A stretch of DNA of 64,000 nucleotides from Melieria omissa (lineage: Eukaryota > Arthropoda > Insecta > Diptera > Ulidiidae). Under the pieces are notes generated by a model, which was not told the DNA's origin, did not search any database, and was given only the letters and a program-made list of their open reading frames with translations. Made by a program: the position numbers and the translations under genes. The stretch lies in assembly GCA_963971225.1 (NCBI GenBank), contig OZ020267.1, forward strand, positions 86,665,648 to 86,729,647, given 5' to 3'. Of the stretch, positions 15,416 to 64,000 are shown in pieces; within the stretch, counting starts at the first letter, position 1, and every line of letters begins with the position of its first letter.

Positions 15416-16727
15416 CTACTGTGATCAAACTGAAAGGTGAATTTTGTTATATTTTTAAAATCTTTATTTATTCTTGCAAATCCATTTCATCTCCTTCAAA
15501 GTAATCCCCTCGCGCTGCAATATACTTATGCCAACGAATTTTCCATTCATCATAGCACTTGGAAAAATCCTCCGTCGGGATGGCCATCAGAGCCTTCTTC
15601 GATTCAGCTTTTATCTCCTCAATTGAGTCAAAACGGTGTCCTCGGAGTGGTCTTTTGAGTTTGCTGAACAGCCAGAAGTCACACGGGGCCAAATCAGGCG
15701 AATACGGTGCTTGCGGAACGATATTTGTTGAATTTTTGGCGAAATGATCACGAAGAACCAATGCAGTATGAGATGGTACATTATCGTGGTGCAGAAACCA
15801 AGAGTTGCCGGCCCACAATTCTGGCCTCTTGAGGCGAATAGCTTCACGTAAGCGGCGCATAACGGTCAAATAATATTCCTTGTTGACAGTTTGGCCCGGC
15901 GGAAGGAATTCATAATGCACCACACCACGATAATCAAAGAAAACTGTCAACATGACCTTGATTTTTGAGCGACTTTGACGCGATTTTTTTGGTCTTGGCT
16001 CACCTTTTGCACGATATTCGCTCGATTGATCGGTTGTTTCGGGATCGTAAGCGTAGACCCAAGTCTCATCTCCAGTTATGATGCGTTTCATTACGTTTTG
16101 ATAGTCAGAAAGCATTGTTTCACAGATGTTAACACGACGGTCTTTTTCGAAAAAATTGAGTGTTTTTGGAACCATTCGAGATCTGACTCTTCTCAAGCCC
16201 AATTCGTCTTTCAAAATCGCCTGCACCGATCCAAATGATATGCCCGAACTATCAGCAATGTCTAATAGTTAATCGACGATTTTCAAGCACCATTTCTTTG
16301 ACTTGTTTGACGTGATGTTCATCAGTCGATGGTTTTGGCCGATTTGACACCACATTTTTCTCAACACTCTCACGACCGGCTTTGAACTCGTTATACCACT
16401 TGTAAACACTTTTAGAAGACAGATTTTGATCACCAAAGGCTTTTTGCAACATCCTCAACTTTTCTGCAGGCGAAATTTCATTCCGCAAACAAAATTTAAT
16501 GCAACTTCTTTGTTCAATAAATTCAGACATAGCAAAAATCGAAGAATTCACTTTTAGAGCCTCACAAAACGACGCGTATCTCAAATACTAATGAATATTT
16601 TGACGTGAAATTTCATAGCATAGATGTCACTAACAGTGCTACCAACTTACAGAAACAAAAAATTTATCGATTCGAAAAACCCGCGAAGTTTAAATTAAAA
16701 ATTCACCTTTCAGTTTCATCACAGTAG
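15416..16727 (-). mobile_element. mariner, nearly intact
   Basis: TIRs of about 28 bp (CTACTGTGATCAAACTGAAA from 15416; mirrored to 16727 with one mismatch) are flanked by TA at 15414-15415 and 16728-16729. The 1.31-kb length is normal for mariner. The transposase lies on the minus strand with a single reading-frame lesion. Confidence 0.9.
15468..16584 (-). pseudogene. mariner transposase with one frameshift
   Basis: N-terminal piece 16584-16252: FIEQRSCIKFCLRNEISPAE, AFGDQNLSSKSVYKWYNEFK (paired-type HTH) and VKEMVLENRRLTIR. The frame then breaks near 16262 and resumes for 252 codons to 15468. The resumed part has TGDETWVYAYDPET (first Asp), FLHHDNVPSHTALV (second Asp) and YSPDLAPCDFWLFSKLK (third Asp, DD34D). 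All catalytic residues and both TIRs are present. The lesion looks like a small deletion between Ile-Arg and the Ile-Ala-Asp block. Confidence 0.9.
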
Positions 16728-17296: not shown

Positions 17297-17299
17297 TAA

Positions 17300-17755
17300 G
17301 GGCGCTGTTATGCAGACGGTCAAATGACCGTCGGTCACGATACTTTTTACGCTCTCGTTTTGTTTTTTCTACTCTGTGCCAAAACCCTGTTATACGGTCA
17401 CCAGTACACTTTTCGCTTACTTGCAGCACTTTTTCCGTACTTTTTCATTTCGACGCATTACGTACAACACAAATGTAAACAAACGATGAGGGTTGCTACG
17501 AACCATTTTTTCCGTCATTAGATACATATTTTCGCGACAAGTGTGCCGTTTTGCTCCGAAAACACATGTGTTGTGAATAATTTCACAACGCAACACTGTT
17601 TTGATCGCATGATTTGGCATCGAGAGCCTCATCATTTTTGACCGACGCGGTCAAATTTTACTCTCCCGCTCTCTCTCTCAATTTTTCATTTTACATTGAA
17701 GCAACAACAACTATCGTGACCGACCGGTAATTTGACCGTCTGCATAACAGCGCCC
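17300..17755. mobile_element. Harbinger-type MITE, short copy A
   Basis: The ends GGGCGCTGTTATGCAGACGG are mirrored, with the same TGACCGTC boxes inside, and TAA flanks both sides (17297-17299, 17756-17758). It inserted into the BEL gag region, whose sequence resumes afterwards. At 456 bp it lacks about 390 bp that are present in copy B (30657-31500). The TWA target duplication suggests PIF/Harbinger origin. No coding sequence. Confidence 0.8.
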
Positions 17756-17929
17756 TAACGCGGGCACATCAGTCAGTCTTGGATTTACACTTTTCGGTGT
17801 TCTAAGCAAATCAGCTATGGAGCGAATGATGTCGAACTTTTGCTCGATGGTTAAGCCAGTGTATCGACATAATTCCCGTACAACACAGATGGCGCTGAAG
17901 TGCGTATTCTAGCAGAGAGAGTTATCCGA

Positions 17930-18329: not shown

Positions 18330-19500
18330 ACACAGCGCAACAAAAAAACACTTTTTTTCTGTTGCATGGAGTTTTTCTACTGTTTCTTACTAATGTGGGT
18401 GCGCTGATTCCGAATCTACCCTCCGATTTTTTCTAGCAGCTCTAGTTTGTGAGATATAGGTACCCTGTCATTTTTTCAGTTTTTCCTCTACTTTTTCTAT
18501 ATTTTCGATCGTAGTTTCTAAACCAAAAAACCGATTGAAATGATTTTAACCTTATCGCATTAACAACACCGCACGGCTTCTTTTCCGATGCAACTTATTT
18601 TTATAAGTATTGAAATGCCGCGGTAATTGGACCTCAAAGTTGGAAAAAATAGAATTTTAAGGCGTTTTCTTTGATGGTCAAAAACATACACATTTTTTGT
18701 AAAACAATTAGAGTTAGTTAGTTATAATGAAAGTCGACACATCAAGCAACACAACACTGCTAAATTATTTGGGGGAATACACATTCGCATCGAAATAACA
18801 GAAAAAATGTACCATCGCGATTTTCTGAAAAAAAAGATTTTTCCTTAAAAAATTAGGGGCCAGAAAATATGCAAAGTTTTTAATGTTGTTTTTGTATCGA
18901 GCAATTCAAAATATTTTTGTTTTTTGCTTGTATGCCAAACTATAAATGGAACATATAAAAGAGCATATTTTGAGGCTCCTAATTTTTTAAGGAAAAAGTA
19001 TGAAAAGAGATGTAAATCGCGATGGTACATTTTTGTTATTATTTCGATGCGAATGTGTATTCCGCCAAATAATTTGGCTGTGTTGTATTGCTTGATGTTT
19101 CTTCTTAAGATATTCATATACTTCGTAACTTGATTTATGAAACATCTGTACAATTTTTGCCATCAGAAAAAACGCCTTTAAATTCAATATATTCTTACTT
19201 TGAAACCTTATTTCCACGCCTATTTATAACGCATAAAATTGATTAATGTCAGGAAAGATGGCGTGAAATGTTGTAAGTGCAACGATATAAAAATCATGTC
19301 GATAGGATTATTGGTTCAGAAATAACAGTCGAAAACGAGAAAAAAGCCGAGGAAAATTCGAAAAAGTGACACGCCCATTTTTTGCAAAAACTAGAGCTGT
19401 TACATAAAAACGGAGTATGGTTTTGAAAACAGCGTGGAAAAACGATTCAGATTCATGTAAAAAACTCCATGCAACAGACATGCTGTTGTGCAGTGTTATC
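18330..19500. mobile_element. foldback element with arms of about 530 bp
   Basis: The left arm runs from CAGCGCAACAAAAAAACACT (about 18332) to about 18870, and is mirrored by about 18960-19500. Clear matching blocks are TGTTGCATGGAGTTTTT (18360; inverted 19461), AGCTCTAG, AATACACATTCGCATCGAAA (18776; inverted about 19042) and CCTTAAAAAATTAGG (18843; inverted about 18978). The loop is about 90 bp. The arms are diverged (perhaps 75-85% by eye), and there is no coding sequence. It splits the BEL gag gene. Confidence 0.75.
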
Positions 19501-25026: not shown

Positions 25027-25553
25027 TTAACACGTTGAGCCTGGCGCCGAATTTCATTCATTTCATTCATATCATTGAGATATTTCTTTTTTAACTTTAA
25101 GCCGCCTGCTACACGTTCAATATTTATTGTGATATTTGGATCGCGATCCATATTGGTGGTTTGAGAGATCGCGCGCGAATGCTACATGTTCAATATTTAT
25201 CGCGTCAGTATTCACATAATTGTTATTCTGAGTGGTTCGTTCTTCTTCCAATTTGAAAATGAATTCTTTCAAAATTTGTTTCTGTCGTCAGCTCCGATTC
25301 TACCGACAGCACACATGCTTTATTTCTTATTTGTTTTATTTTAATTTCACCATGTACTGCCGAACCGCTTATTGATATCATGAAATATGCTACACGTTCA
25401 ATATTTATTGACAGTTTTGTGATCCGCGATCCAGATTTCAAAATATTTAAATATTTTGCGATATGGATCACGATCCATCAACATTGCATGCTAAACGTTC
25501 AATAAATATCGCGATACTGGATCGCCTAATACTGTCGGTCGCACGGACCGACG

Positions 25554-27321
25554 CACACTGGGGTAATTCATGCCGATTTTGGCGATTAATTCACCCGGAC
25601 TATTTAGACATGAAAAAAGTATTAGGTTTAGTTAATTATAGATAAAGAAGTAGAAAATAAATGTATTTGAACATACTTTAGTGGATTTTTTTTATTTATG
25701 ATCAAAAATGCAAAATTGTTACAAAAGGGTATTATACAGAATTCCCCGCTTATTTATTAATTACTATCGGAATCATCATCGTATTCACCCACGCTTTCAC
25801 CTTCGCATCCATTGTTATCATCATTATCGTTAATTCGCGTTCTTCTTCCGCAATTATCAACAAATCCAATGGTTCCCTTGGCGTGCGCGTAACTGCTTTA
25901 TGAGGCAATTTCATTTCTGTCGATATAATGGGATCACAATTTATAAGCAGTCTATTTAGAACGTCTTCGTTGGTTTTTTCTCGGCTACTTTTTCAAGAAA
26001 AATATTTCCTGAAAGCCTTAAAATCTTTATTTCTCGCTTCCCGCGCTTCTTCAGATAATTCATCGATTCGCAACAAGGCGTGAGCTATGACCTCTGGTCC
26101 ATTAATGAAATATTTATGAACAGTCGTAGGCATGTTATACCAGGGATAGTACTCAACGAAAGATTAGGCACAATTTAAGGCAAAGAGTTGGTCATTATGT
26201 AATAAAGACTTAAACGAGTATACCAAATAACATTGGATTTCGTTCCTAAATAAAAACAACCACCTTTTTTAATATCTTGAAAAAGTAGTCTTTTGCAGTT
26301 ACCTTTTACCTAATTAGTTTAATGCACATCACTGCGGTTATTTCAATCGATTACTCATAAGTAATACAAACAATAACAATGCCCAATACTGCAACTTCTG
26401 ATAAATAAGGTCAGCTGACCTAGTTTTGCACACACCGTACAACAAAGCCAAATGAAATAATCTAAGATATCGAAATTTTACTTGGTTCTGCATTATTTGA
26501 GATTATTTTGTATTGTGTTTCATAAATATCTTAAAAACCAAAAATACTCACGTGTCGCGATATCCCGCCTAATATGTCGTCTAATATGCTGGTTAATATA
26601 AATCTAACATGCCGGCCCTCCGTAATGTAGGTTAAAAAGCATATAGAAATACTAAAAACCATACATTGAACAACAACAAAACTAACATAAAACATATCGC
26701 TTGTTGCTTTTCTCATATTTTTTGCATTTACATTTATTTTTTGTCTTTCCTTTCACGGACCGCGTGCATATTTTGCCAAAACTTCACATACAAAAATCGA
26801 AATGCTGCAAAAGTGCGCAACAATAGCGCAACTTTTTTTTCATAGAAAGTTGCTAGAATATCCACAGATTACGACTATGACAATATTTTAGGTGAACATC
26901 ACTGAACAAACAACTATATGTTTATGAATAGGGCCAACATAAGGCAATTTTTAGGCTTTTTAAAAAAAAAATAACAAAAATATTTACGAACACTTAAAAA
27001 ACAAAAAAAATTTATATTTTAATACTAAAATACCTGAACAAGTAGCCTCCATTATCAGTTTTATGCTACTTTAAAAACTTGTAAAACAAATTTGATTTAA
27101 ATAATTGAAAAATTCACGTTTCACGCTGTGCGCACGTGAAATGAAATTAAATGTCAACTTTCAGAGTGCTTTGCGGGAAAACGGTAAACTATTTTGCAAC
27201 AACTCTTTTACGTAGTGATGCAGAGTTTTATCCACTTTAACCCGGTACCAAAAACGTATCTGTATCTTTATTTTTCGTTTTTGAATTAATCGCCACTTTA
27301 CTTATATATTACCCCAGTGTG
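25554..27321 (-). mobile_element. Transib-1 (RAG1-related transposon)
   Basis: Both ends read CACACTG, then 23 bp, then GATTAATTC. Left: 25554-25560, spacer 25561-25583, nonamer box 25584-25592. Right, inverted: 27315-27321, 27292-27314, 27283-27291. Heptamer and nonamer are identical at the two ends while the middle of the spacer differs. The 5-bp target duplication is CGACG (25549-25553 and 27322-27326). This is the structure of Transib termini, and a Transib-like transposase relic lies inside. Confidence 0.85.
25757..26166 (-). pseudogene. Transib transposase C-terminus, RAG1-like
   Basis: The minus strand reads YYPWYNMPTTVHKYFINGPE, then VIAHALLRIDELSEEAREAR, NKDFKAFRKYFS, a stop, and SREKTNEDVLNRLLINCDP. 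It closes with an acidic D/E/N-rich tail in a shifted frame near 25760-25860. By eye this aligns with the RAG1 core C-terminus (FHK, PEII, SEGNESGNKLFRRFRK, EDVL), the region holding the third catalytic acidic residue. In Transib the corresponding Glu lies in the SEEAxEARNK block. The remainder upstream (26170-27280) is not recognisable, so the gene is dead. Confidence 0.75.
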
Positions 27322-27514
27322 CGACGCCAGCCAAACGAAAATTCTAGTGCCGGTTCTCAGGGACCGGCGCCGGCCACACGGAAAGTTCACTGGCGGTCCC
27401 CAGGGACCTCTGCCGGGCCCAACGTGTTAAGCTAATTCCACCACAATGCAAGGAGTAAATAAATCCCCTCACAGCTTAAACTGTCAAGCAACGTTTTGAA
27501 GTATTGCGGACATG

Positions 27515-29424
27515 TACTACTGTGCCCAAAAAATACCCTGATTTGTGTTATACAATGAAAAATCTTTATTTTTTTATTTTATAACCTTCAACTCCCCCTC
27601 CCCCTACTCACCCTTTAATGCAATCTTCGATTCGGCTTTATCTCCTCAATCGACTCAAAACGATGTCGCCGGAGCGGTCTAATAAGATTAGCTAAATCAG
27701 GCGTCTACGGCGCACAGTGTTGCGAGTAGTGACAAAAATGCCAAAATGCAACTGTATAAGCGCGAAAATCTGAATACAAGGTTTTGTTGGAAATACTTCA
27801 GTTAAGAGAAATCCGAAGTTTTATGAAAAAATATTGGATAACATAGAAGTTTCGAGCTCTTAAATTAAGCTCTTCCAGCGTTGAAAAAAATGTGTGTACA
27901 AACAGCAAATTTTTCCTTTGACTTTGAGGTTGAATATTTTAAAATAAATTAAGAGCAGGTCTCTAAAAGTTACTATTGTCGTAAGTTTTATATAATCTAG
28001 GTCTGTCAAGACCAACATTTTGCTGATTACTTTCACCTATGAGCAGTACCGTTATGATGAAAATTAAGTAAAGAAAGCGAGGGAATAAAAAGTGAGTTCA
28101 AATTTTAAAAGTGATTTAAAAAAAAAACGTTAAATATCACTTTTGAAATGTTTTGATATTTTGTTTTGGCAAGTATGTAGATTATGCTGTACAATTTTTA
28201 GCTGCGCATATTTGCGCGAATGGAAGTTATTGGCATTTTTCGGTGAAGACTTGAGTGCAAATTCGCGATATTTTCACAGTTTGGTTGAAAGCCAATAGCA
28301 ATCGGTCAATTAATGCTCTGCTGGTGATGGAAAAATTTGTTGAAGATAGCTCCGGAAAATCAATTACGATTACCATTATATTCGAAATAGAGGGGTTAAT
28401 AGAGTTTCGACAGTACACTTTGATTTTTTTTCGTACAGAACCAGAAGTTGACAACCCTACTACTTCAATTGTATGGGAGGCGCCCTCTGGGGGTGAATTT
28501 TTGAACTTTAATAAATTTTGTATTTTTGGCATTCAGGAATGTTGACGATTTTTTAATAAATCATTCAAATCGGTTAAGTACTTTGCCAGATACGATGTTT
28601 CTTCGCTTACTTGACTACATTTACAAGTGTGGAGTCAGTTCCATTGAAAATTACTAGTTTTGTATTGCAGCCACCTTCAGAGTTAGATGTAGCGGTTAGG
28701 TGTGTGTATAGAAAAAATATTCGAAAGGGAAAATAAATTTGGGTCAGTCTTACATATGGTACGTCTGGGACTAACCTGAGAGCAGCGGGAGCCCACTTTA
28801 TAAAAACGATGGTTTTGTATGGGAGCCTCATTAAGGGTTGGAGATAGGTGGTAAGAATGTTCGAAAAAAAGATTCAGGAGGAAATCCTGAATAGTGGGGT
28901 CAGTCTAAGATTTTAACCCTCTAAGAGCAATTTCTGAGCAGCCATGGAGCACTTTATCGCGATTTTATTTTCAATCACTTTAAAAAAAAACGCAATTTAT
29001 CTGTATACACATTTATAAATAAATTTATATTAAAATACAAATATTTTGAATGCAGCTTTTATGAACTAAGATAATTTTCATTTTTAATATAAAGTTTTTT
29101 CAAATCCGTTTGTATAGGAGGTAGTCGAAGTTTTAGTCCGATTTCAAAATTGAAAAATGAAATTTTGCACAGTAAGTTCTTTACTCATACAATAACTGTA
29201 TACCAAATTTCATTTATATATAACCACTCCTTCCATTTGTGTCACGCCGCTATATGAACTCGCAACACTGTGCGGCGGAGGTTGCGGAATGATTTGGGTC
29301 GAATTTTCGGCGACATGGTCACGAAGAACGAGTGGAATGTGGGATGGCGAATAATCGTAGTGCAAAAACAGAGTTGTAAAATATATAAAAATTCCCTTTT
29401 TGTGTCGTACAAAACCGAGCATAA
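27515..29424 (-). mobile_element. mariner fragment split by Transib-2
   Basis: The left TIR TACTACTGTGCCCAAAAAAT begins at 27515. Minus-strand mariner sequence runs to 27712 and resumes at 29273-29424. Across the join, the wording matches the intact mariner at about 15610-15780 (TCAATCGACTCAAAACG, CTAAATCAGGCG, TTGCGGAATGA.TT, CACGAAGAAC). This confirms the exact insertion site of Transib-2. The rest of the mariner is missing. Confidence 0.75.
27713..29272. mobile_element. Transib-2, non-autonomous, 12/23-type ends
   Basis: Left end: CACAGTG (27713-27719), 12-bp spacer (27720-27731), ACAAAAATG (27732-27740). Right end, inverted: CACAGTG (29266-29272), 23-bp spacer (29243-29265), ACACAAATG (29234-29242). 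The target duplication CGGCG (27708-27712, 29273-29277) is exact, and the interrupted mariner supplies the empty-site context. Both ends share CACAGTGTTGCGAGT and GTGACAxAAATG, the difference being 11 extra bp in the right spacer. No Transib coding sequence is visible. The two facing 96-101-codon frames at 28227-28545 match nothing I know. Confidence 0.85.
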
Positions 29425-29871: not shown

Positions 29872-30656
29872 AATATTTCGGCGAAAATAATTACCAACGT
29901 AGTTTAAATTGAGATTCCGAGTGCATGTTTTGGACACAGTAGTATATGAAACTAACAGCTTTATTCTGGCAATCGCAAAATATTCTTCTCCATTTTTGCA
30001 AAATTTATTAACAAGTGCAATAGCTTCAAAATCATCAAGCATGAGTTGAGTTTCGATGACTTTTGCTGGGGTTTATGGACGTTTTGGGCAAGAAGAATGA
30101 AATTATGACGAGGAAGCGTCGCTGTTAAGCCAATTGAAGGTAATCCTTTTGATATGAAATCGCTCTGCCGTGATTTGATTTAGCAAATGACACGACACTC
30201 GTCTTCCTTGGCCTCCTAACAACGAGCTTTTTTCTTGTAATGCTCTTACCAGAATGATGCAAATTTTTGGAATAATAATGGAGGAATAAATTCTAGAGAA
30301 AGTGCCAGAATATGGTTGTATTGAGAAGTAGGAATTTAAGTCCCGTTAGTCTACACCATTTTCATTAAAAAATGAGAAAACCGTAGTCGATAAGAAATAC
30401 AATTTTTTATATTCAGCAGTATTACCGTTATTGAAACTAGAGTAGATTCTTTAAAATTTTGGCAAGTGTCATTTTCGTTGTCGCAAATGTTTACTTAATT
30501 ACAACTGCGCGTTCCCATTGTCGGTTCAGAACGACACAGGGGACTGCCGATATGCGTCATGTGGATTTTTCTTCATACTACATGTATGAACATTTTCTAT
30601 TGCTAGCATTCATTGTAATTCTTAGTTAAAAATCAGCCGCAATTCACGTTACGCTA
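29872..30656. other. unassigned spacer
   Basis: The 88-codon minus-strand open frame at 29779-30042 overlaps the MITE end and is not recognised. The rest is AT-rich sequence without a gene or clear repeat boundary. Confidence 0.35.
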
Positions 30657-31500
30657 GGGCGCTGTTATGCAGACGGTCAAATGACCGTCGGTCACGATAC
30701 TTTTTACGCTCTCGTTTTGTTTTTTCTACTCTATGCCAAAACCCTGTTATGCAGACGGTCATTTGATCGCTGGTCACAAGTACACTTTTCGCTTACTTGC
30801 AGCACTTTTTCCGTACTTTTTCATTTCGAAGCTGCGTTTTTCTGTTCTCAGCAACATTGCCTGAACGAAGTCTTGTGAAATTAAATAAATAAAAATGGAT
30901 ATTGGCTTAGAAGCACTTAATTTTGGCAACGGATATGCCAAAAAAGTTGTATTTTGGCGGGACGAACACAGGAGAGTCATCAGAAAGTGTTTGCAAATTT
31001 ATATTTCGTTCCAACACCAGAAACACTCGCAAAAGGAGATCCTGTGCCACAAAACTATGGCGCAAAGAAAGAAGAAACAAAGGCTCATTTGCTTTCGTTT
31101 CACATCAACTTAGGCTGAATGATAATCAGGCTTATAAGAATTAACTCATAACACAAATATAATAATTATTTACCACTTAATTTGTAATTTTCCCGTTTTT
31201 GGAAAGCCACGTACAACAAAAATGCAAACAAACGATGAGGGTTGCTACGAACCATTTTTTCCGTCATTAGATACATATTTTCGCGACAAGTGTGCCATTT
31301 TGCTCCGAAAACACATGTGTTGTGAATAATTTCACAACGCAACACTGTTTTGATCGCATGATTTGGCATCGAGAGTCTCCTCATTTTTGACCGACGCGGT
31401 CAAATTTTACTCTCCCGCTCTCTCTCTCAATTTTTCATTTTACATTGAAGCAACAACTATCGTGACCGACGGTCATTTGACCGTCTGCATAACAGCGCCC
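30657..31500. mobile_element. Harbinger-type MITE, long copy B
   Basis: Same ends as copy A (GGGCGCTGTTATGCAGACGG and inverse) and near-identical flanking 150 bp on each side. A central block of about 390 bp (30830-31210), absent from copy A, holds short open frames with LEALNFGNGYAKKVVFW and Arg/Lys-rich text. The flanks CTA and TTA fit a TWA target duplication with one change. Copy A is most simply an internal deletion of a copy-B-like element. Confidence 0.8.
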
Positions 31501-32033
31501 TTACAAAAATTTATCATTCCCTGATCAAATTTAAGATTCTGGCAGACTAGTTACTGTAATTTCAGAAAGCGTTCCAAGATGACGAATTTCCAAAAATACT
31601 TTCACGATGCAAGTAAAGCAACTTTCCTATGTACTATTTCCTTCAAAAAGCGACTTTTAGGTCTGCTTTCCGCAAATATCTTGTTTACTAGTCACACTGT
31701 AAATTTCCCTTAATACTTTTTAAAATGTTTTGCAAATGTGTAGGTTGCGACGCAGTTAAGAATTTCGGTGTAAACTATGTGCGTAAACTTACACAGGAAC
31801 GAACCCTTTAAAGCACCCAGTATACCATGGATGGAAGCATATATTGTGAAACTACATCGGTTTATAATAATTGTATTTTACCTTGGATACTTGATTTAAA
31901 TAATAATTCTCATTTTGAAATGAAAATGGTGCAATAGTCCGCCTATTTACTGGCAATATATATATAAGTTATATACTCTAGGTATGTATGTAAACTTGTT
32001 TTGTCCAAAGACTAACAGTGCATAAATTTTCAG
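31501..32033. other. probable intron or intergenic sequence
   Basis: Nothing coding was recognised. If 32034-32169 is a true last exon, this stretch is the 3' part of its intron, ending in a polypyrimidine-like ATAAATTTTCAG acceptor at 32022-32033. Confidence 0.4.
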
Positions 32034-32454: not shown

Positions 32455-33777
32455 CTATGCGGCACTCGATGCAGATTGCTGTTGCAGCGATTCACTTCGA
32501 TTTCTCTCCCAGATCTGCGATATGCATTCAAGAACAGTTTGTACGGAAGAGGTTTTATGGCGCATAAAATAACCCTGCACTTGTGCCGGGCTGACTGGAC
32601 GACCGTCGGCGATCACCCTATGAGCAAACTCGACAGCGGTGTGGGGAGCCAATTGTTCGTCACGACAATAAAAGCGCAGGAACATCTCCTTCAGTTGATG
32701 TGAACCACAAAACCCCACATACTCCTTAATGTCCACGCGGCCTGGGCGAATGAGCGCGGGATCTAACCGATCCAAGTAGTTGGTTGTCATAAAAACGATT
32801 CGCGCTTCCGTTGAAGCCACTCCATCTAGACAATTTAGTAAGCCGCTAAACGTAATGCGATTCAAGCCCTCATAAGCCGTCGCCTGTTGTTTCACATCTT
32901 CACGCGACGCGAAGGCGGCGTCAACATCTTCTAGAAGGATGATAGACTGTTCCGGTGCGACATTCAGCAAATGGTTGAGGCGGTCATCAGTGAGGCCACG
33001 CTCGGATAAGTTGAGCAGGCAAATGCCATACTCCAATTGACCAGCCAAAGCTGTGATAAAGCTTGATTTACCGCAGCCAGGCGGCCCATGGAGTAGGTAA
33101 CCCCGGCGGTATGGGATTCCACGATCGATGTACCATTGCGAATTGCCGATGAATTCTTTGCAGTCAGCAACTATGCGCTCAGCTACTCCTTTTTCTAGAA
33201 CCACAGAAGACAGTGGACGTCTTCGGCGAGGGTGACCAAATGGCCGCCACTCAGAGCCCATCGCTGTGTACATGACAGTTTTGCCTTCTGTAGCTTCGAG
33301 TGCCATCTGGCGAGCCTCCTCCAAAATGTTGAAATACAACTGCTTGTCACGTCCGAACGCTGTCAATGTCACACTTTCCCAAGGAACGCCCATGTGTAAA
33401 TCCAACGTTTGCTGCTCGCGTGTGCGCTCTACTTGAATCCAGATGCCTCTATAACGGAACAAATGTTTTCCAATACTTGGAATAAAGTCGTATTTAGTGC
33501 GAATCTGCCCTGTTTCCCTTTGAACGAAAGACGTTTCAACGCTTAGATGCTGTGTTTCACGGGCCCCCCGAACCGTAATCCATTGAAGCAGCCATTGGTA
33601 CGACTTGTCACGGCACGGGACTTCTAACGTTATCATCATGTGTCGGCGGAAAAAAATCAAAGCAACTTGCAGTCCTTTGCGCAGTATTGCTGCCCCAGCT
33701 CCGATACCAAACAATCCAAAACCAGCGCTAAAGTACGGATTTGCTGATAAACCACCAACAAGCTCCGAAAACGGCAT
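32455..33777 (-). CDS. Bcs1: mitochondrial chaperone BCS1 (AAA ATPase)
   Basis: A 440-residue protein in one exon, the length of insect and vertebrate BCS1. BCS1 sits in the inner mitochondrial membrane and uses ATP to move the folded Rieske iron-sulfur protein across it during complex III assembly. Visible in order: [20 protein letters not shown] and a glycine-rich membrane segment (about 15-40), the BCS1-specific domain with [20 protein letters not shown] (about 43-62), and [16 protein letters not shown]. Then come Walker A GPPGCGKS (231-238), Walker B LLEDVDA (281-287) and the arginine-finger block RPGRVD (344-349). I chose Met at 33777 and not the in-frame Met 10 codons upstream (33807), because family members begin with MP[FL]S at this point. 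The frame is intact. A Harbinger element starts about 104 bp upstream of the start codon. Confidence 0.95.
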
Positions 33778-33881
33778 CCTGGTAAAATTATCTAATATAT
33801 TACACAAAACTGCAACTGGTCGCTAAAACAGCGAAAAGGAACGGACAAGGAGACTCAGGTGAATAAATAATTCCAATCGCA
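33778..33881 (-). promoter_or_regulatory. remaining BCS1 5' flank
   Basis: Only about 104 bp of native upstream sequence remain between the BCS1 start and the Harbinger TTA at 33882-33884. It must hold the 5' UTR and perhaps the proximal promoter. No TATA box is evident, and the AT-rich ATATTAGATAATTTTACC precedes the start codon. The native flank continues at 53080. Confidence 0.5.
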
Positions 33882-46271: not shown

Positions 46272-46583
46272 AATGAACTCCCTCCATAACATTTCATTTC
46301 TTTGCGACGCCATCCTCACTGTTCGGTGTCTACCGATCGAATGACAAAATGCACTATGTGCGTCACACAGCCATTTACACGGTCGCGCATGTGCGTCACG
46401 CCGACAGAGAAATCCAAAAATTTTGAAAACCTTCAAACATGTCCGACGACACGAATTTCTTGCGTTTACACGGTCATTCTTCTTGTCACGCCGCACATGA
46501 TTGCAAACATGTCCGACCGTCTTAAGGCCGCATAACAAAAAACAACGACCGTCTTGTCAGCTGCCGCCGAAATTGCGTATTGA
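46272..46583. repeat. duplicated block, copy 1
   Basis: About 310 bp from AATGAACTCC to AAATTGCGTATTGAA recur at 54862-55174 with only a handful of differences. The block includes the right half of the TGCGGCCTT element and about 50 bp of Harbinger flank beyond it, so it copies a junction and not just an element. Confidence 0.75.
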
Positions 46584-46894
46584 ATCCAAATCATTTTGGG
46601 TGAAAACTCAATGGCAAGAAATGAAATGGGCAGGAAGCCCTATATCTTTGGAAGATACTCCGAGCGCTTCAGAAAGGCGTTGAGAAACCAAAACATGAAG
46701 ATGATATCGGAGTAGCTTTCTAAACACGTGAGGAGGATGCAATAAATAAATAAAATTCTACGGAAGCAAGAACAAGAAAAAGAATATTACTGTGTCCAAA
46801 AAATGTGTCCCATGTTTTTTGCCTCATACAAAAAGACTTTCACCAGCTGACAAGATGCTCAAAATGCAAGGCTTTTTCTACAATTTTGTTTATG

Positions 46895-47476
46895 TTAACC
46901 TAAATCGTCAACAGATTGATCCGCACAACCCCCAGCATAAACAAAATTGTGGACAAGGCCTTGCATTTTGAGCCTTAATAGCATCTCCTCAGCTGGCGAA
47001 AGTGTTTTTATGTGCGGCAGTAAACTATGCAAAAATTGCGCATCATCATCTTCTTTCTGTTCTTCTTGCTTTCGGAGGATTTTAATTTTATCCTCCTCAA
47101 GTCTTACGTGCGCTGCTTCGATATCATCCTCATCCCGCTTTCGTTTTTTAACGCCTCTCTGGCGTGAAGTGCTCGGAGTTTCTTCCAAAGTAGGGCTTTC
47201 TGCTATTTCATTGCTAGCCATTGAATTTTCATCCAAATCTATTTGGATGCAATCCCCAATTTCAGTTTCCTTTAGATTCCTACTGCTCGGTCTGGTTGCA
47301 AACTGGTCCTTGAGAAAAGAGATGCTTTCAAAAAACGTCCAGTTGGAGGACCACTTTGCGACTGCTCCATCTCCAGATCGAGGAGTTTGGAATTTGCGCA
47401 GCTCCTTCCGGAATGTGTCTCGCAGAGACTTCCATTTATTCCGGACGACATCTCCTATAAAAGATAAAAACAATTA
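46895..47476 (-). pseudogene. Harbinger MADF/BESS protein, exon 2, copy 1
   Basis: After a TTTTATAG acceptor (minus strand, near 47477) the frame reads GDVVRNKWKSLRDTFRKELR and FQTPRSGDGAVAKWSSNWTF (second half of a MADF DNA-binding domain). A low-complexity linker with KKRKRDEDD follows, then a BESS-like end FLHSLLPHIKTLSPAEEMLL. The frame is open through 190 codons. MADF/Myb-like proteins are the second gene of PIF/Harbinger elements. Its exon 1 is at 52721-52860. Confidence 0.75.
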
Positions 47477-50801: not shown

Positions 50802-51544
50802 CTGATACACATGAAAATGCCTACGGAAACCTCTTTCAAAAAAATTGCTGCTGATTGTTACCAAAAATGGAACTTCCCAAATTGCCTCGGCAGCATCGAC
50901 ACAAACATGTGCGGATAAAATGCCCTGCTCATTCTGGCGCAATGTTTTATTATTATAAACATTTTTATTCTGTTGTGTTGCAAGCTGTAGCAGATGCCGA
51001 CTGCAAATTTATAGCAATTGATGTTGGAGGATATGGGAATCAAAGTGATGGTGGAACCTTTCGGTCTTCTTCACTTTCTCATGCAATGGAAAGTGGAAAT
51101 CTAAATATTCCCCCCGATACGACTTTGCCATTGACTGTGGTTACCGTCCCATATGTGTTAATAGGAGATGAGGCATATCCAATATTGACGTATTTATTAA
51201 AGCCATACTGCAGAAATAACTTGGGTGCTGATAAAGAGCATTTTAATATGCGTCTTTCGCGAGCATGAAGATCAGTAGAATGTGCCTTTGGTATAATAAA
51301 TGCGAAATTTAGAATTTTATGGAAGCCAATTGAAACCTTACCAGAAACGGCAGACAAAATTATGAAAGCAATATGCGTTTTGCATAATACAATTATTGGT
51401 ATGGAAGGATTTGATGCGCAATGTGAGCAACTCGCTGCACAATGCTCCAATATGCCAAGGAATAGAGAGAATAATAGAGCTTGCAGTTCTGCAAATATTG
51501 TAAGGGATTCGTACAAGACGTTTTTGTGTGAGAACCGAATTTAG
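50802..51544 (+). pseudogene. Harbinger transposase, exon 3 (catalytic)
   Basis: The acceptor TTTTCCAG at 50794-50801 is followed by MPTETSFKKIAADCYQKWNF and PNCLGSID (first Asp). After a frameshift near 50899: KHVRIKCPAHSG, FIAIDVGGYGNQSDGGTFRS (second Asp in the DVG block), LIGDEAYPILTYLLKPY, a TGA after RLSRA near 51268, RSVECAFGIINAKFRIL (catalytic Glu in the E-C/R-A-FG block) and a C-terminal tail to 51544. DDE residues are visible, but one frameshift and one stop inactivate it. Confidence 0.85.
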
Positions 51545-51552
51545 CACATTAA

Positions 51553-51968
51553 AATCCCTTACAATATTTGCAGAACTGCAAGCTCTATTATACTCTAGAG
51601 TTGCTCACATTGCGCTTCAAATCCTTCCATATCAATAATTGTGTTATGCAAAAAGCATATTGCTTTTGAAATTTTGTCTGCCGTTTCTGGTAAGGTTTCA
51701 ATTGGCTTCCATAAAATTCTTAATTTTTTCAATAGTGGAGAGTCGTATTGGGAGTGGAGAGTCGTATCGGCAGGAATATTAAGGTCTCCACTTTACATTG
51801 AATGAAAAAGTTAAGAAGAATGAAAGGTTCAACATTGTTATAAACTTGTAGTTGAAATCTGCTACAGCTTCCGACGCCACAAAATAAAAATGTTTATAAT
51901 TGAAAAACATGGTGTTTGCCGTCGATGCTTCCGAAGCAAATTGGGAGGTTTAATTTTTGGTAATAATC
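51553..51968 (-). pseudogene. inverted partial copy of Harbinger exon 3
   Basis: The minus strand repeats the exon-3 text with roughly 280 bp missing in the middle, from LNLPICFGSIDGKH-like sequence (near 51960) to the C-terminal FGI-less end at 51553. It begins 43 bp after the end of the plus-strand arm (AATCCCTTACAATATTTGCA mirrored at 51490-51509). The arms differ at many positions, so the two copies diverged or came from different elements. Confidence 0.75.
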
Positions 51969-56663: not shown

Positions 56664-56736
56664 ATGAATGAGAAATCACGGCTAAGCTGCGGTGTTCGCT
56701 TAAGCTAAAGCCGGGGGAATATGGAAATATATAAAT

Positions 56737-57287
56737 TTGGACGAGTTGCCATTTATTAGGGAAAGTGAGAACTTCGAGAAGGTTATTATTTTGTACGTTA
56801 TAATAAAATATGTTTGTAGGGCTCGAGAGAAGCAGGAGAACCGAGGAGAACAACTAGAAGCATTGCTTGATGAAGATTCGTGCCAAACCCAAGAAGAGCT
56901 TGCCGAATCGTTGGGAGTGAGTCAGCAAGCCATTTCAAAACGTCTCAAGGCCCTGGGCATGATTCAGAAAGAAGGAAACTGGGTGCCGTACGAGTTGAAA
57001 CCGAGGGACATCGAGCAAAAGTGGTCAAAAAGTACCTGGAAACGCTGAAATGGGAAGTCTTGCCCCACCCGCCGTATTCCCCAGATGTCGCCCCTTCTGA
57101 CTTCCACCTATTCCGTTCGATGGCACACGGCCTGGCAGATCAACATTTTCAATCCTTCGAAGAATTGGAAAAATGGATTGCTTCATGGATAGCGTCAAAA
57201 GAGGACTCCTTTTTTCGAGCCGGGATCCGAAAATTGCCGGAAAGATGGGAGAAAGTTGTCGCTAGCGACGGACAATACTTTGAATAA
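56737..57287 (+). pseudogene. mariner transposase, core deleted (block copy 1)
   Basis: The N-terminal part (QTQEELAESLGVSQQAISKR, LKALGMIQKEGNWVPYELKP) is joined after a deletion and frame change to the C-terminal part (HPPYSPDVAPSDFHLFRSMA, IRKLPERWEKVVASDGQYFE). The first two catalytic Asp blocks are gone, the third (PDVAPSDF) remains. The right TIR, read inward, is TATCAGGTGTACAACTTTGC (to about 57367). The same structure lies at 60457-61007. Confidence 0.85.
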
Positions 57288-57399
57288 TACATCTGTAAGC
57301 ACTTTTTCGCAATAAAGCTTTTAATTTTGGAAAAAAAACGGCGGAAGCAAAGTTGTACACCTGATAGTTAAAATGTAATTGAAACTAAGTTTTGTCCAA

Positions 57400-58748
57400 A
57401 AATTAATAACTTTGTGAATATGCTTTTCTCGCTTGAACTCCCTGCAGAAGTTTCGGCGTGCATTTTATTAAATTCGGTGTTTTGTCAGCGGTTATTTTGT
57501 TATATCCTTGAATTGTTATATTGATTTACTATATCTTTGAAGATGGAGTGTTGTTGGGCTCAGGGTTCAAGTAACCCCCTTATATGCTCAATTAGATGCA
57601 CGTTAGGTGACTAGGGAGGAACTTTTTGAACTTTGTTGAGTTAGTTAATAGCAAACACAGCTTTGCATCGTATGCATTGCGCCTTAAGGTCATCGTAAAG
57701 TTGAATGAAATGTTGGAACCTGATCCAAAGAATATGTAAATAACCTCTCGGAACCATTTCTAAATAAAACAACACAGCCTGCTCACTCCTTTACTAGACA
57801 TGCAGCCCCATACCATACCGCCTCAAATGCTATGCTTTGCTGTTAATGTCAGATTTTTGTTATTAACTGAATCCTCTTCAAATTAGTTGATGCCGTTTAA
57901 TGCCAAATATGCCAAACCATTATCAGAGAATAATAAATCTTCCTACGCCATAGATAACAACACATAGTCCTGGAAATCCTTTTCCTCTTTCACGAAAGCA
58001 ATTATATGCTCCTTGTTAGTAAGCTAAATATGAGATTCTTACATGCTGTTATGTAGAGAAAATATGTTTATTTCAGGACTTTTCTTATAAAGTCACTGCT
58101 ACTGGGTTGTATAAAATATTTCTGTACATTTCTGAAGAAATCGGATGCAAGTAGTCTTAGATTATGATTATGATGATCTAATCCTATTGCCTGGGTAGCT
58201 TAAGAAAATGGCCAGATCGTAGTAACGAAGCAAGATTTTCTGTTTTTTTGTGATTTAAGATGGCTTTTTAGAATAACGAATGTGCTCTTCCAAAAATTTC
58301 TCTAATTTCACGAAATTTTTTGTCAATTTAGGAAAGATTTAGTAAGATTATCCTTTTATCCATTTTTATTTTTTTCGCTTGGGTTCTATTGCTTTCTATA
58401 TAATTTCAAGCACATATACGTTTAAAAATAATTTACAAGTCCGTTTACTGGAATACAATCAATGGAATACAAATTTCCAAATAAAAATAAAAAGCATAAC
58501 TGGAAACCCCCGTTATTAGTTTTGTACGCAAACTTATTCTGCTCCGTTTTGTGAGTATATTGTCAATAAATACGAATACATGGAAAATTATAATTTTAAT
58601 ATATCTAAAACAGAACAAAAAATGTAGTTTAAGCATATATGAAAAATGTGGATAAGTTTTTATAAAGAAAGAACCAATTTTTGAGGTCAAAATTAATCAT
58701 AACATAATGTTGACTTGCCTGTACGCAAACTTATTCTGACTAGTGTAT
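57400..58748 (-). mobile_element. Tc1-like remnant (block copy 1)
   Basis: Around 57740-57830 the minus strand reads MVWGCMSSKGVSRL, the GGGSxMVWG-type block of Tc1 transposases, and LRRNAYDAKLCLLLTN follows. CAGAATAAGTTTGCGTACA occurs at 58540-58520 and 58740-58720 as a repeated end. Heavily mutated. The copy in the second block is at 61120-62468. Confidence 0.55.
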
Positions 58749-58749
58749 T

Positions 58750-59560
58750 TTTTATTATCACATTTAATTAATTTTTTAAAATAACATTTATATATTACAT
58801 TAATATTACATTTAAATTATTTATTTAAATATATTTTATTTACTCACATCATCAACCTCCATTTTAATTGATATTTTGTCAGAAACTAAAATGTTTTACG
58901 AAACTCCCTCACTTAATTACGCGTGTCAAGTAGCAAACTCTTCTTGTAATCACTCATTGCATTCAGTGTACAGGTAGCATTTTGGCCCGTTACGCACTGT
59001 CAACGACTCATTAACATTGCTTGCAGTGTATATAGCAGAGAGAAAACAGTGCGTGTCTTGCAGAGACAAGCAATTGAGTGTTGACTGCTGTTGCGGTTAG
59101 CGTTTTGTTGTCATTCTCATACTGCTCTCTTACTACAGTGAATGCTGGCAATCAGTGCACACTGCACCGAATCACACTGTGTGTAGGGAGAAATGAATCA
59201 TCCATTGCAGCTCTTTAATATATATTTATACACAAATATATACACACGAATTCACGTGATCACATACATAAAAAATCACTTTTTCACAAATAAACACATA
59301 TTTTCACACACATTTTACTGCACATTTATATTATTTTTATATTCTAGTACATACAATTCCCATTCTTTTACATACATTCCCTACTCACATTAACAAAAAA
59401 TTTGCTTACTACCCATTCACATGTTTACTACCCATTCACATTCAAAAATTTTGTTTGTGCCCATATATACATATATATTTCCCTACACGTTAGCACATAC
59501 CCGGGTGAAACCTCTTTTGCTCGACTTAAATACAAATTCGGTTTGACGAATTGTCCCATT
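58750..59560. other. AT-rich part of the composite block
   Basis: 58750-58860 is almost pure A/T. 58900-59170 has repeated TTGCAGTGTA and CATTCAGTG words. 59200-59560 is BEL-leader-like A/T/C-rich text with many CACA and ATTCAC words. No gene. Mirrored at 62470-63280. Confidence 0.5.
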
Positions 59561-59936
59561 CCCAACTCTTCCCATTTTCAAATATCGTTCGCGGGGACGC
59601 GGTAAGACTACACGTCTATTTCCCCAATACCCTACACACATATATTTATTTAAACTTTTTACCCTTTGTCGAGCTTTTCAAACAAAATGCCTGCTGAGCG
59701 ATCCCCTAAACGCCAACTTATCACAATGGAGACTCCGTCCTCCCAAAGTCAGCCAGTGCACGTTTGACAGTTCCTGTCACTCAGGGGCCACCAAACACTC
59801 GCTCCAAACTCTCTAGTCCCAAAGCAACCGATCCCAGTGTTGCTAAATTTACATTCGAATCCGATAGACTCGTGCAATTATGCACACAATTTTCATCGGC
59901 TCCCATTGACGATTTGACCAAATCTCTGTGTAAAAA
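59561..59936 (+). pseudogene. BEL leader end and gag start (block copy 1)
   Basis: TATCGTTCGCGGGGACGCGG (near 59583) matches the leader of the BEL at 16932. ATG 59687 opens MPAERSPKRQLITMETPSSQ, and after a stop or shift the text continues as LSSPKATDPSVAKFTFESDR and SSAPIDDLTKSL to 59936. There it runs into an inverted LTR. Same in the second block at 63281-63656. Confidence 0.75.
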
Positions 59937-60169
59937 CCGATCGTCGCGGAGCGGGGTAAATGAAACGCGTTGGGTGCGGTTAGGGGGTTGTCGGTCTTTA
60001 TTTGTCGACGTTAGAATCACGAGTGATTACAAGAAGTACATGAAACATTGAACGAGACAAACGGCCGAAGCCGGGGAGCAGAAAATAGGGGGAAACATGA
60101 GTACAAAGGGAAAGAAAATGAAGGGATTAGCGGTGGGAAAGGCAGATCATTAGAGACAGCACTCATTTA
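59937..60169 (-). repeat. BEL LTR in inverted orientation (block copy 1)
   Basis: Read on the minus strand it has TTCTGCTCCCCGGCTTCGGC, TTCTTGTAATC, AATAAAGACCGACAACC and ends near CGCTCCGCGACGATCGG, in the same order as the BEL LTR at 11384. Upstream of it (60170-60360 minus) is the pre-LTR text with ATGGCGGCCGCGATGG. It therefore faces the plus-strand gag start. Same at 63657-63889. Confidence 0.7.
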
Positions 60170-60456
60170 ACCATCGCGGCCGCCATTGCATATTGCAATC
60201 AATGGATGCCGCGGGCCAGACGGGCGAGGACTCCGTGGTGCAGCTTTTGCGGGTGCGGGTGTGCCATCCATCGATGCGTCGTCCTCGAGGGAGTGCTGCT
60301 GCAGCGGTTGGGGCGTAGTCACCGATCTGCAAATATATGAGATGTCAGTTAATTGGAAATAAAAGTATTAAGGCTGACATCGTGGGAATGAGAAATCGCG
60401 GCTAAGCTGCGGGGTTCGCTTAAGCTAAAGCCGGGGGAATATGGAAATATATAAAT

Positions 60457-61007
60457 TTGGACGAGTTGCCATTTATTAGGGAAAGTGAGAACTTCGAGAA
60501 GGTTATTATTTTGTACGTTATAATAAAATATGTTTGTAGGGCTCGAGAGAAGCAGGAGAACCGAGGAGAACAACTAGAAGCATTGCTTAATGAAGATTCG
60601 TGCCAAACCCAAGAAGAGCTTGCCGAATCGTTGGGAGTGAGTCAGCAAGCCATTTCAAAACGTCTCAAGGCCCTGGGCATGATTCAGAAAGAAGGAAACT
60701 GGGTGCCGTACGAGTTGAAACCGAGGGACATCGAGCAAAAGTGGTCAAAAAGTACCTGGAAACGCTGAAATGGGAAGTCTTGCCCCACCCGCCGTATTCC
60801 CCAGATGTCGCCCCTTCTGACTTCCACCTATTCCGTTCGATGGCACACGGCCTGGCAGATCAACATTTTCAATCCTTCGAAGAATTGGAAAAATGGATTG
60901 CTTCATGGATAGCGTCAAAAGAGGACTCCTTTTTTCGAGCCGGGATCCGAAAATTGCCGGAAAGATGGGAGAAAGTTGTCGCTAGCGACGGACAATACTT
61001 TGAATAA
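60457..61007 (+). pseudogene. mariner transposase, core deleted (block copy 2)
   Basis: Same as 56737-57287 with one amino-acid difference noticed (LLNEDSC in place of LLDEDSC). The deletion junction is identical, which shows that the block was duplicated after the mariner was deleted. Confidence 0.85.
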
Positions 61008-63280
61008 TACATCTGTAAGCACTTTTTCGCAATAAAGCTTTTAATTTTGGAAAAAAAACGGCGGAAGCAAAGTTGTACACCTGATAGTTAAAATGTAATT
61101 GAAACTAAGTTTTGTCCAAAAATTAATAACTTTGTGAATATGCTTTTCTCGCTTGAACTCCCTGCAGAAGTTTCGGCGTGCATTTTATTAAATTCGGTGT
61201 TTTGTCAGCGGTTATTTTGTTATATCCTTGAATTGTTATATTGATTTACTATATCTTTGAAGATGGAGTGTTGTTGGGCTCAGGGTTCAAGTAACCCCCT
61301 TATATGCTCAATTAGATGCACGTTAGGTGACTAGGGAGGAACTTTTTCAACTTTGTTGAGTTAGTTAATAGCAAACATAGCTTCGCATCGTATGCATTGC
61401 GCCTTAAGGTCATCGTAAAGTTGAATGAAATGTTGGAACCTGATCCAAAGAATATGTAAATAACCTCTCGGAACCATTTCTAAATAAAACAACACAGCCT
61501 GCTCACTCCTTTACTAGACATGCAGCCCCATACCATACCCCCTCAAATGCTATGCTTTGCTGTTAATGTCAGATTTTTGTTATTAACTGAATCCTCTTCA
61601 AATTAGTTGATGCCGTTTAATGCCAAATATGCCAAACCATTATCAGAGAATAATAAATCTTCCTACACCATAGATAACAACACATAGTCCTGGAAATCCT
61701 TTTCCTCTTTCACGAAAGCAATTATATGCTCCTTGTTAGTAAGCTAAATATGAGATTCATACATGCTGTTATGTAGAGAAAATATGTTTATTTCAGGACT
61801 TTTCTTATAAAGTCACTGCTACTGGGTTGTATAAAATATTTCTGTACATTTCTGAAGAAATCGGATGCAAGTAGTCTTAGATTATGATTATGATGATCTA
61901 ATCCTATTGCCTGGGTAGCTTAAGAAAATGGCCAGATCGTAGTAACGAAGCAAGATTTTCTGTTTTTTTGTGATTTAAGATGGCTTTTTAGAATAACGAA
62001 TGTGCTCTTCCAAAAATGTCTCTAATTTCACGAAATTTTTTGTCAATTTAGGAAAGATTTAGTAAGATTATCCTTTTATCCATTTTTATTTTTTTCGCTT
62101 GGGTTCTATTGCTTTCTATATAATTTCAAGCACATATACGTTTAAAAATAATTTACAAGTCCGTTTACTGGAATACAATCAATGGAATACAAATTTCCAA
62201 ATAAAAATAAAAAGCATAACTGGAAACCCCCGTTATTAGTTTTGTACGCAAACTTATTCTGCTCCGTTTTGTGAGTATATTGTCAATAAATACGAATACA
62301 TGGAAAATTATAATTTTAATATATCTAAAACAGAACAAAAAATGTAGTTTAAGCATATATGAAAAATGTGGATAAGTTTTTATAAAGAAAGAACCAATTT
62401 TTGAGGTCAAAATTAATCATAACATAATGTTGACTTGCCTGTACGCAAACTTATTCTGACTAGTGTATTTTTTAATATCACATTTAATTAATTTTTTAAA
62501 ATAACATTTATATATTACATTAATATTACATTTAAATTATTTATTTAAATATATTTTATTTACTCACATCATCAACCTCCATTTTAATTGATATTTTGTC
62601 AGAAACTAAAATGTTTTACGAAACTCCCTCACTTAATTACGCGTGTCAAGTAGCAAACTCTTCTTGTAATCACTCATTGCATTCAGTGTACAGGTAGCAT
62701 TTTGGCCCGTTACGCACTGTCAACGACTCATTAACATTGCTTGCAGTGTATATAGCAGAGAGAAAACAGTGCGTGTCTTGCAGAGACAAGCAATTGAGTG
62801 TTGACTGCTGTTGCGGTTAGCGTTTTGTTGTCATTCTCATACTGCTCTCTTACTACAGTGAATGCTGGCAATCAGTGCACACTGCACCGAATCACACTGT
62901 GTGTAGGGAGAAATGAATCATCCATTGCAGCTCTTTAATATATATTTATACACAAATATATACACACGAATTCACGTGATCACATACATAAAAAATCACT
63001 TTTTCACAAATAAACACATATTTTCACACACATTTTACTGCACATTTATATTATTTTTATATTCTAGTACATACAATTCCCATTCTTTTACATACATTCC
63101 CTACTCACATTAACAAAAAATTTGCTTACTACCCATTCACATGTTTACTACCCATTCACATTCAAAAATTTTGTTTGTGCCCATATATACATATATATTT
63201 CCCTACACGTTAGCACATACACGGGTGAAACCTCTTTTGCTCGACTTAAATACAAATTCGGTTTGACGAATTGTCCCATT

Positions 63281-63889
63281 CCCAACTCTTCCCATTTTCA
63301 AATATCGTTCGCGGGGACGCGGTAAGACTACACGTCTATTTCCCCAATACCCTACACACATATATTTATTTAAACTTTTTACCCTTTGTCGAGCTTTTCA
63401 AACAAAATGCCTGCTGAGCGATCCCCTAAACGCCAACTTATCACAATGGAGACTCCGTCCTCCCAAAGTCAGCCAGTGCACGTTTGACAGTTCCTGTCAC
63501 TCAGGGGCCACCAAACACTCGCTCCAAACTCTCTAGTCCCAAAGCAACCGATCCCAGTGTTGCTAAATTTACATTCGAATCCGATAGACTCGTGCAATTA
63601 TGCACACAATTTTCATCGGCTCCCATTGACGATTTGACCAAATCTCTGTGTAAAAACCGATCGTCGCGGAGCGGGGTAAATGAAACGCGTTGGGTGCGGT
63701 TAGGGGGTTGTCGGTCTTTATTTGTCGACGTTAGAATCACGAGTGATTACAAGAAGTACATGAAACATTGAACGAGACAAACGGCCGAAGCCGGGGAGCA
63801 GAAAATAGGGGGAAACATGAGTACAAAGGGAAAGAAAAGGAAGGGATTAGCGGTGGGAAAGGCAGATCATTAGAGACAGCACTCATTTA
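63281..63889. pseudogene. BEL gag start and inverted LTR (block copy 2)
   Basis: Repeats 59561-60169: gag start on the plus strand (ATG 63407) up to 63656, then the minus-strand LTR 63657-63889. No new feature. Confidence 0.7.
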
Positions 63890-64000
63890 ACCATCGCGGC
63901 CGCCATTGCATATTGCAATCAATGGATGCCGCGGGCCAGACGGGCGAGGACTCCGTGGTGCAGCTTTTGCGGGTGCGGGTGTGCCATCCATCGATGCGTC

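Follow-up and report, generated by a model that had tools for sequence, protein, structure and literature searches.

The window, a stretch of 64,000 nucleotides from the fly Melieria omissa, carries a BCS1 gene (32455-33822), whose best matches, 85% identical, are in Ceratitis capitata and Rhagoletis pomonella. It also carries a non-autonomous, MITE-like element inserted into a mariner transposase relic (Table 1). The original prediction had fixed the boundaries of this element to the base from its exact target duplication and from the interrupted mariner, and both lines of evidence held: when the element was removed and the flanks were joined, they aligned through the junction with a mariner copy at 15596-15807 (69% over 215 bp), and the protein of that copy matches the flanks on both sides. 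A second, different Transib relic with symmetric CACACTGGGGTAAT ends lies ~390 bp upstream, and holds a broken fragment of a transposase C-terminus on the minus strand (26190-25855).

Table 1. Coordinates of the element, its ends and its surroundings within the window.
Feature	Position	Strand	Remark
Second, different Transib relic	25554-27321		Target-site duplication CGACG at 25549-25553 and 27322-27326
Mariner transposase relic, 3' part, left of the insertion	27624..27712	-	
Target-site duplication CGGCG, left copy	27708..27712	.	
Non-autonomous Transib-like element (MITE-like), 1560 bp	27713..29272	+	No transposase similarity found
Left heptamer CACAGTG	27713..27719	+	
Left spacer, 12 bp	27720..27731	+	TTGCGAGTAGTG
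Left nonamer-like block	27732..27740	+	ACAAAAATG
Left positions 29-39, second A-rich conserved stretch	27741..27751	+	CCAAAATGCAA
Right nonamer-like block	29234..29242	-	ACACAAATG; family majority ACAAAAATA
Right spacer, 23 bp	29243..29265	-	
Right heptamer CACAGTG	29266..29272	-	
Target-site duplication CGGCG, right copy	29273..29277	.	
Mariner transposase relic, 5' part, right of the insertion	29273..29376	-	

The element has two features of Transibs, a 5-bp GC-rich target duplication and ends that start with CAC and resemble the heptamer of recombination signal sequences (RSSs). It contains no stop-to-stop open reading frame of at least 120 aa, and transposase remnants within it were rejected, as tblastn (E up to 1) with three Transib proteins of the same genome (A, B and C) gave no match. 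The predicted pair of a 12-type left end (CACAGTG-12-ACAAAAATG) and a 23-type right end (CACAGTG-23-ACACAAATG) was confirmed to the base, as were the nonamer scores against ACAAAAACC, 7/9 on the left and 6/9 on the right. A scan of spacers from 5 to 39 placed the optimal nonamer score at 12 on the left and at 23 on the right; 9-mers from the element's own interior score at least 7 in 0.45% of cases and at least 6 in 1.9%. Because the majority right end of the family carries ACAAAAATA, which scores 7/9, the window copy has a variant right nonamer, and the form typical of the family comes closer to the RSS nonamer than was originally seen. Judged by sequence, both spacers thus appear to be followed by an A-rich nonamer (ACAAAAATG and ACAAAAATA, both 7/9). 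The right-end module GTGACAAAAAT reappears exactly (11/11) at the 12 position of the left end, and comparison of the two ends gave a best register shift of +11, with 14/19 positions identical; a shift of +2 gave only 10/19. The displacement of a shared module by 11 bp between the ends, proposed from this one copy, is supported family-wide.

We searched the 490-Mb assembly (164 contigs) for relatives. A first look gave 356 candidates for the left 100 bases and 438 for the right 100; 40 were scored for each, and all 40 matched in both cases. Forty copies with an exact match to the left end were then selected in the order of their genome positions and read. All 40 matched the interior of the element; 33 reached the right terminus and 7 did not. 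The 23-bp register is kept at the right end of all 33 as well as in the window copy, and the majority of these 34 right ends is CACAGTG-TTGCGAGTTCATATAGCGGAGTG-ACAAAAATA. An automatic best-score scan agreed on spacer 23 for 33 of these ends and assigned the remaining one, L041, to 29; this end has ATAAAAACA in register at 23, and the scan had favored a 9-mer of higher score lying 6 bp deeper in the element. Twenty copies were also chosen by their right end, and 240 bases were fetched at the expected left end, which was present in 16 and missing from the fetched bases in 4. All 16 left ends start with the 12-bp arrangement; one has lost a nonamer base and one has a spacer substitution. Among the 33 two-ended copies, target duplications were exact in 21, with one mismatch in 9, two in 2 and five in 1, and 11 of the 21 exact duplications fit CGNCG in full.

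Exact patterns with variable gaps extended these readings to the whole genome. The left pattern, CACAGTGTTGCGAGT-N(0-30)-GTGACANAAATG, has 131 exact matches genome-wide and its reversed control none; among the 100 of the 131 that were listed, 99 have a 12-bp spacer and the other is the right end of the window copy. The right pattern (the family right module, gap 5-30) has 142 matches, again with none for its control; among the 100 of these that were listed, which extend as far as C3:74.8 Mb, 99 have a 23-bp spacer. The sole exception among those 100 is an exact right-type end at C1:62898130-62898172, whose spacer exceeds 23 by 5 bp. A scan of viral contigs with the exact patterns gave 0 matches. 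The genome therefore holds well over a hundred related ends, with a 12-bp left and a 23-bp right spacer throughout the copies examined, rare exceptions aside. Equal spacers in other copies, which the original prediction had named as evidence against itself, were thus looked for, and the listed matches do not refute the prediction.

To see how ends lie relative to each other, we counted left ends on C1-C3 (131, the union of three left patterns, with the 12-position module intact in 94) together with the 100 listed right ends. Fifty-two pairs lie no more than 6 kb apart, and all are convergent left-right pairs; this set of ends contains no left-left, right-right or same-orientation pairs, and no 12/12 or 23/23 derivatives were seen in it. 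Such exclusiveness does not prove that pairing follows a rule, because descent of whole copies gives the same result.

The same genome contains Transib families of another build. In four of them (A, B, C and D), as in the relic at 25554-27321, both ends are in the same register, with a best shift of 0. Families A-D resemble the 12/23 family in their CAC-starting ends and in their 5-bp target duplications, most of which, among those read, are rich in GC; the heptamer is CACAGTG in A, C and D and CACTATG in B, and an A-rich block stands at spacer 22 on both ends of A and B. They differ from the 12/23 family, with its shift of +11 and no transposase, in having transposase frames, which are open in A (up to 689 aa) and B (up to 672 aa) and interrupted in the copies read of C and D. 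Protein B matches HzTransib (6pqn) at E 2e-98, RAG1 of 6xnx at 7.4e-08 and the RAG1 entry of Pfam. Transib transposases are very diverse in this genome: protein C as query gave 2,416 first-look candidates, and many of the 100 matches listed are long open frames (up to 839 aa) with 42-58% identity to the query.

Against this abundance, an autonomous partner was sought beside the family's own ends. A PF12940 search of the genome returned 68 places (68 scored of 166 candidates), and the protein C search, far from exhaustive, returned its 100 matches from 97 scored candidates. With five second pieces of the same loci set aside, 95 protein C places remained, all of them more than 6.7 kb away from the 222 listed family ends. 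The PF12940 places on C1-C4, 66 once those on C51 and C72 are set aside, all lie more than 7.5 kb from 149 family ends. Within the reach of these non-exhaustive searches, no partner thus turned up beside the listed ends: the genome has many Transib transposases, and none of those compared is near the listed ends of the family. Family end pairs 3.3-5.3 kb apart do exist and could hold an autonomous partner; long copies of this kind include C1:51483398-51487336, C4:3573547-3577594 and C3:55416880-55422201. One of the pairs, of 4,544 bp, spans a nearer left end, and a 2.5-kb piece of one long pair (L053) gave no Transib protein match. The element is very probably one copy of a non-autonomous Transib family, presumably mobilized in trans by a Transib transposase.

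The original prediction held that a 12/23 pair outside RAG and ProtoRAG would be notable. Its reading of the locus as a Transib-type element stands, and the 12/23 pattern proved to be family-wide, but the novelty does not survive. Kapitonov and Jurka (2005) are reportedly the source of the report of 12/23 Transibs. In passages of PMC8355894, some Transibs are said to have 12/23 asymmetric ends, with credit to an earlier paper, its ref. 8, and the legend of its Fig. 2 lists Transib5 of D. melanogaster and Transib2, N1, N2 and N3 of An. gambiae. As described there, those elements share with the present family the heptamer, the A-rich nonamer and the combination of a 12-type with a 23-type end; they come from other hosts, and the comparison is one of descriptions only. 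Excerpts of PMC9435367 attribute asymmetric ends to all subgroup I Transibs and both kinds of ends to subgroup II, and excerpts of PMC8289069 attribute symmetric ends to most Transib families. HzTransib (6pqn) is a Transib whose transposase is related to those of this genome; the latter excerpts describe its ends as symmetric and as resembling the nonamer hardly or not at all, whereas the 12/23 family is asymmetric. The vertebrate RSS pair recognized by RAG1/RAG2 has the same exact CACAGTG and spacers of 12 and 23, and differs in that the nonamers of the fly element reach 7/9 at best and that the latter is a mobile insect element. ProtoRAG and other RAG-like transposons are alike in the asymmetric ends of the amphioxus element and in 5-bp GC-rich duplications, according to portions of PMC8355894, PMC8289069 and PMC7204232; amphioxus ProtoRAG differs in its spacing, given in PMC8355894 as 27/31 and not 12/23, and in the presence of a RAG2-like gene. 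Parts of PMC4411706, PMC6941560, PMC11844651, PMC1852546 and PMC12230796 served as general background only.

The conservation of the ends, which bears on whether the spacing serves a function or is simply carried along, was examined in 22 near-full-length copies (21 of the 33 two-ended copies and the window copy). Of the 858 cells in the right terminal 39 columns (7+23+9), 22 are mismatched, and none of these columns has an indel; among interior 39-column windows, 1 of 1,424 is equally low when gaps are counted and 11 of 1,424 when only substitutions are. Across 34 right ends, mean identity is 0.95-0.99 in blocks of columns 1-39 and 0.89-0.90 beyond, and reaches 0.97-1.0 in the heptamer columns. 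Bases 1-28 of the left end cannot be judged for constraint in this way, because the copies were selected on those bases. Counts of intact left patterns gave total matches of 131 for the 12-position module, 117 for positions 29-39 and 117 for control positions 52-61, with 100 places listed for each pattern; in 85 control copies on C1-C3, the 12-position module was kept in 58 and positions 29-39 in 62. Nonamer conservation, the other point on which the original prediction had staked its case, thus holds for the right end, which is constrained and free of indels, but on the left the 12-position module showed no measurable advantage in intactness over its neighbors. A strict 12/23 reading is at its weakest in these counts.

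They also lend weight to the view that the spacing difference is a founder feature that hitch-hikes without a role in pairing, the transposase tolerating either spacing. Within a single family, conservation does not tell function apart from shared descent, the left module is preserved about as well as the sequence around it, and most Transib families are symmetric in the account excerpted from PMC8289069. The constraint over all 7+23+9 columns of the right end argues against this view, as do the other 12/23 Transibs reported from Drosophila and Anopheles in passages of PMC8355894. On balance we regard a founder feature as possible, though not probable.

The left end offers a further reading. 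Mean identity is 0.949 in its columns 29-39, compared with 0.852 in columns 40-60 and 0.884 in columns 61-90; columns 29-39 contain 2 mismatches, a level reached by only 5 of 1,443 interior 11-column windows, which places them with the best conserved. These positions thus also seem constrained, and the left end may exceed a 28-bp 12-signal. Within this stretch, CCAAAATGC sits at spacer 21 and scores 6/9 against the nonamer consensus. Both ends could accordingly be bound over ~39 bp with CCAAAATGC as the true inner site on the left, a proposal that we consider doubtful, and it is just as doubtful that the ACAAAAATG at the 12 position is an extra or vestigial copy and the 12/23 look a by-product. 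Binding over ~39 bp may hold in the symmetric Transibs of the same genome as well, and families A and B, each with an A-rich block at spacer 22 of either end, are in keeping with it. Against it, the right-end module is exact over all 11 positions at the left 12 position, and a common ~39-bp layout needs the shift of +2 rather than the far better +11. The high identity of columns 29-39 is itself open to challenge, as selection of copies by an exact match to bases 1-28 favors identity nearby and columns 91-140 reach 0.932 as well. A single indel in one copy, or chance, as the origin of the apparent 12/23 pair has virtually no likelihood left and is ruled out by the family-wide spacing, with 12 or 23 bp kept by 99 of 100 exact left and 99 of 100 exact right ends among the matches listed and by 33 of 33 other right ends in the 23-bp register.

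Transib transposase belongs to the DDE enzymes and is related to the core of RAG1. For a non-autonomous element mobilized in trans, a transposase dimer would cut at the CAC of each heptamer, presumably through a nick and a hairpin as described for Transib and RAG, with one end of each kind paired. On the left end, the shared GTGACAAAAAT module would be contacted closer to the heptamer than on the right, by 11 bp or one helical turn; insertion would then favor GC-rich targets like CGNCG. It is no more than a guess that unlike ends have to be paired; the combination could simply be inherited. A true 12/23 restriction, in which a transposase that has no RAG2 would cut efficiently only with one 12-type and one 23-type end bound together, symmetric ends being used by sister Transibs of the same nucleus, seems to us unlikely; if it were real, the 12/23 rule would predate RAG2 or have arisen independently of it. 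A many-copy 12/23 family, with the symmetric families A and B as built-in controls, makes the need for asymmetry without RAG2 testable, a matter that bears on how vertebrates came by the 12/23 rule; the worth of the family is as a test system, the 12/23 arrangement itself being already in print.

Several other repeats lie in the window. A direct duplication of ~3.6 kb (56666-60280 and 60386-64000, 99.6% identical) contains an open reading frame that looks mariner-like by eye. Segments at 18358-19478, 46569-47263 and 51305-51726 match themselves in reverse complement over ~460-1140 bp (70-76%); these long palindromes are probably inverted-repeat elements. An element whose inverted ends of 50 bp (AGGGCGCTGTTATGCAGACGG) match at 96% occurs twice, at 30656-31501 and 17299-17759, the two copies being ~96% identical to each other over one 300-bp part and 87% over another.
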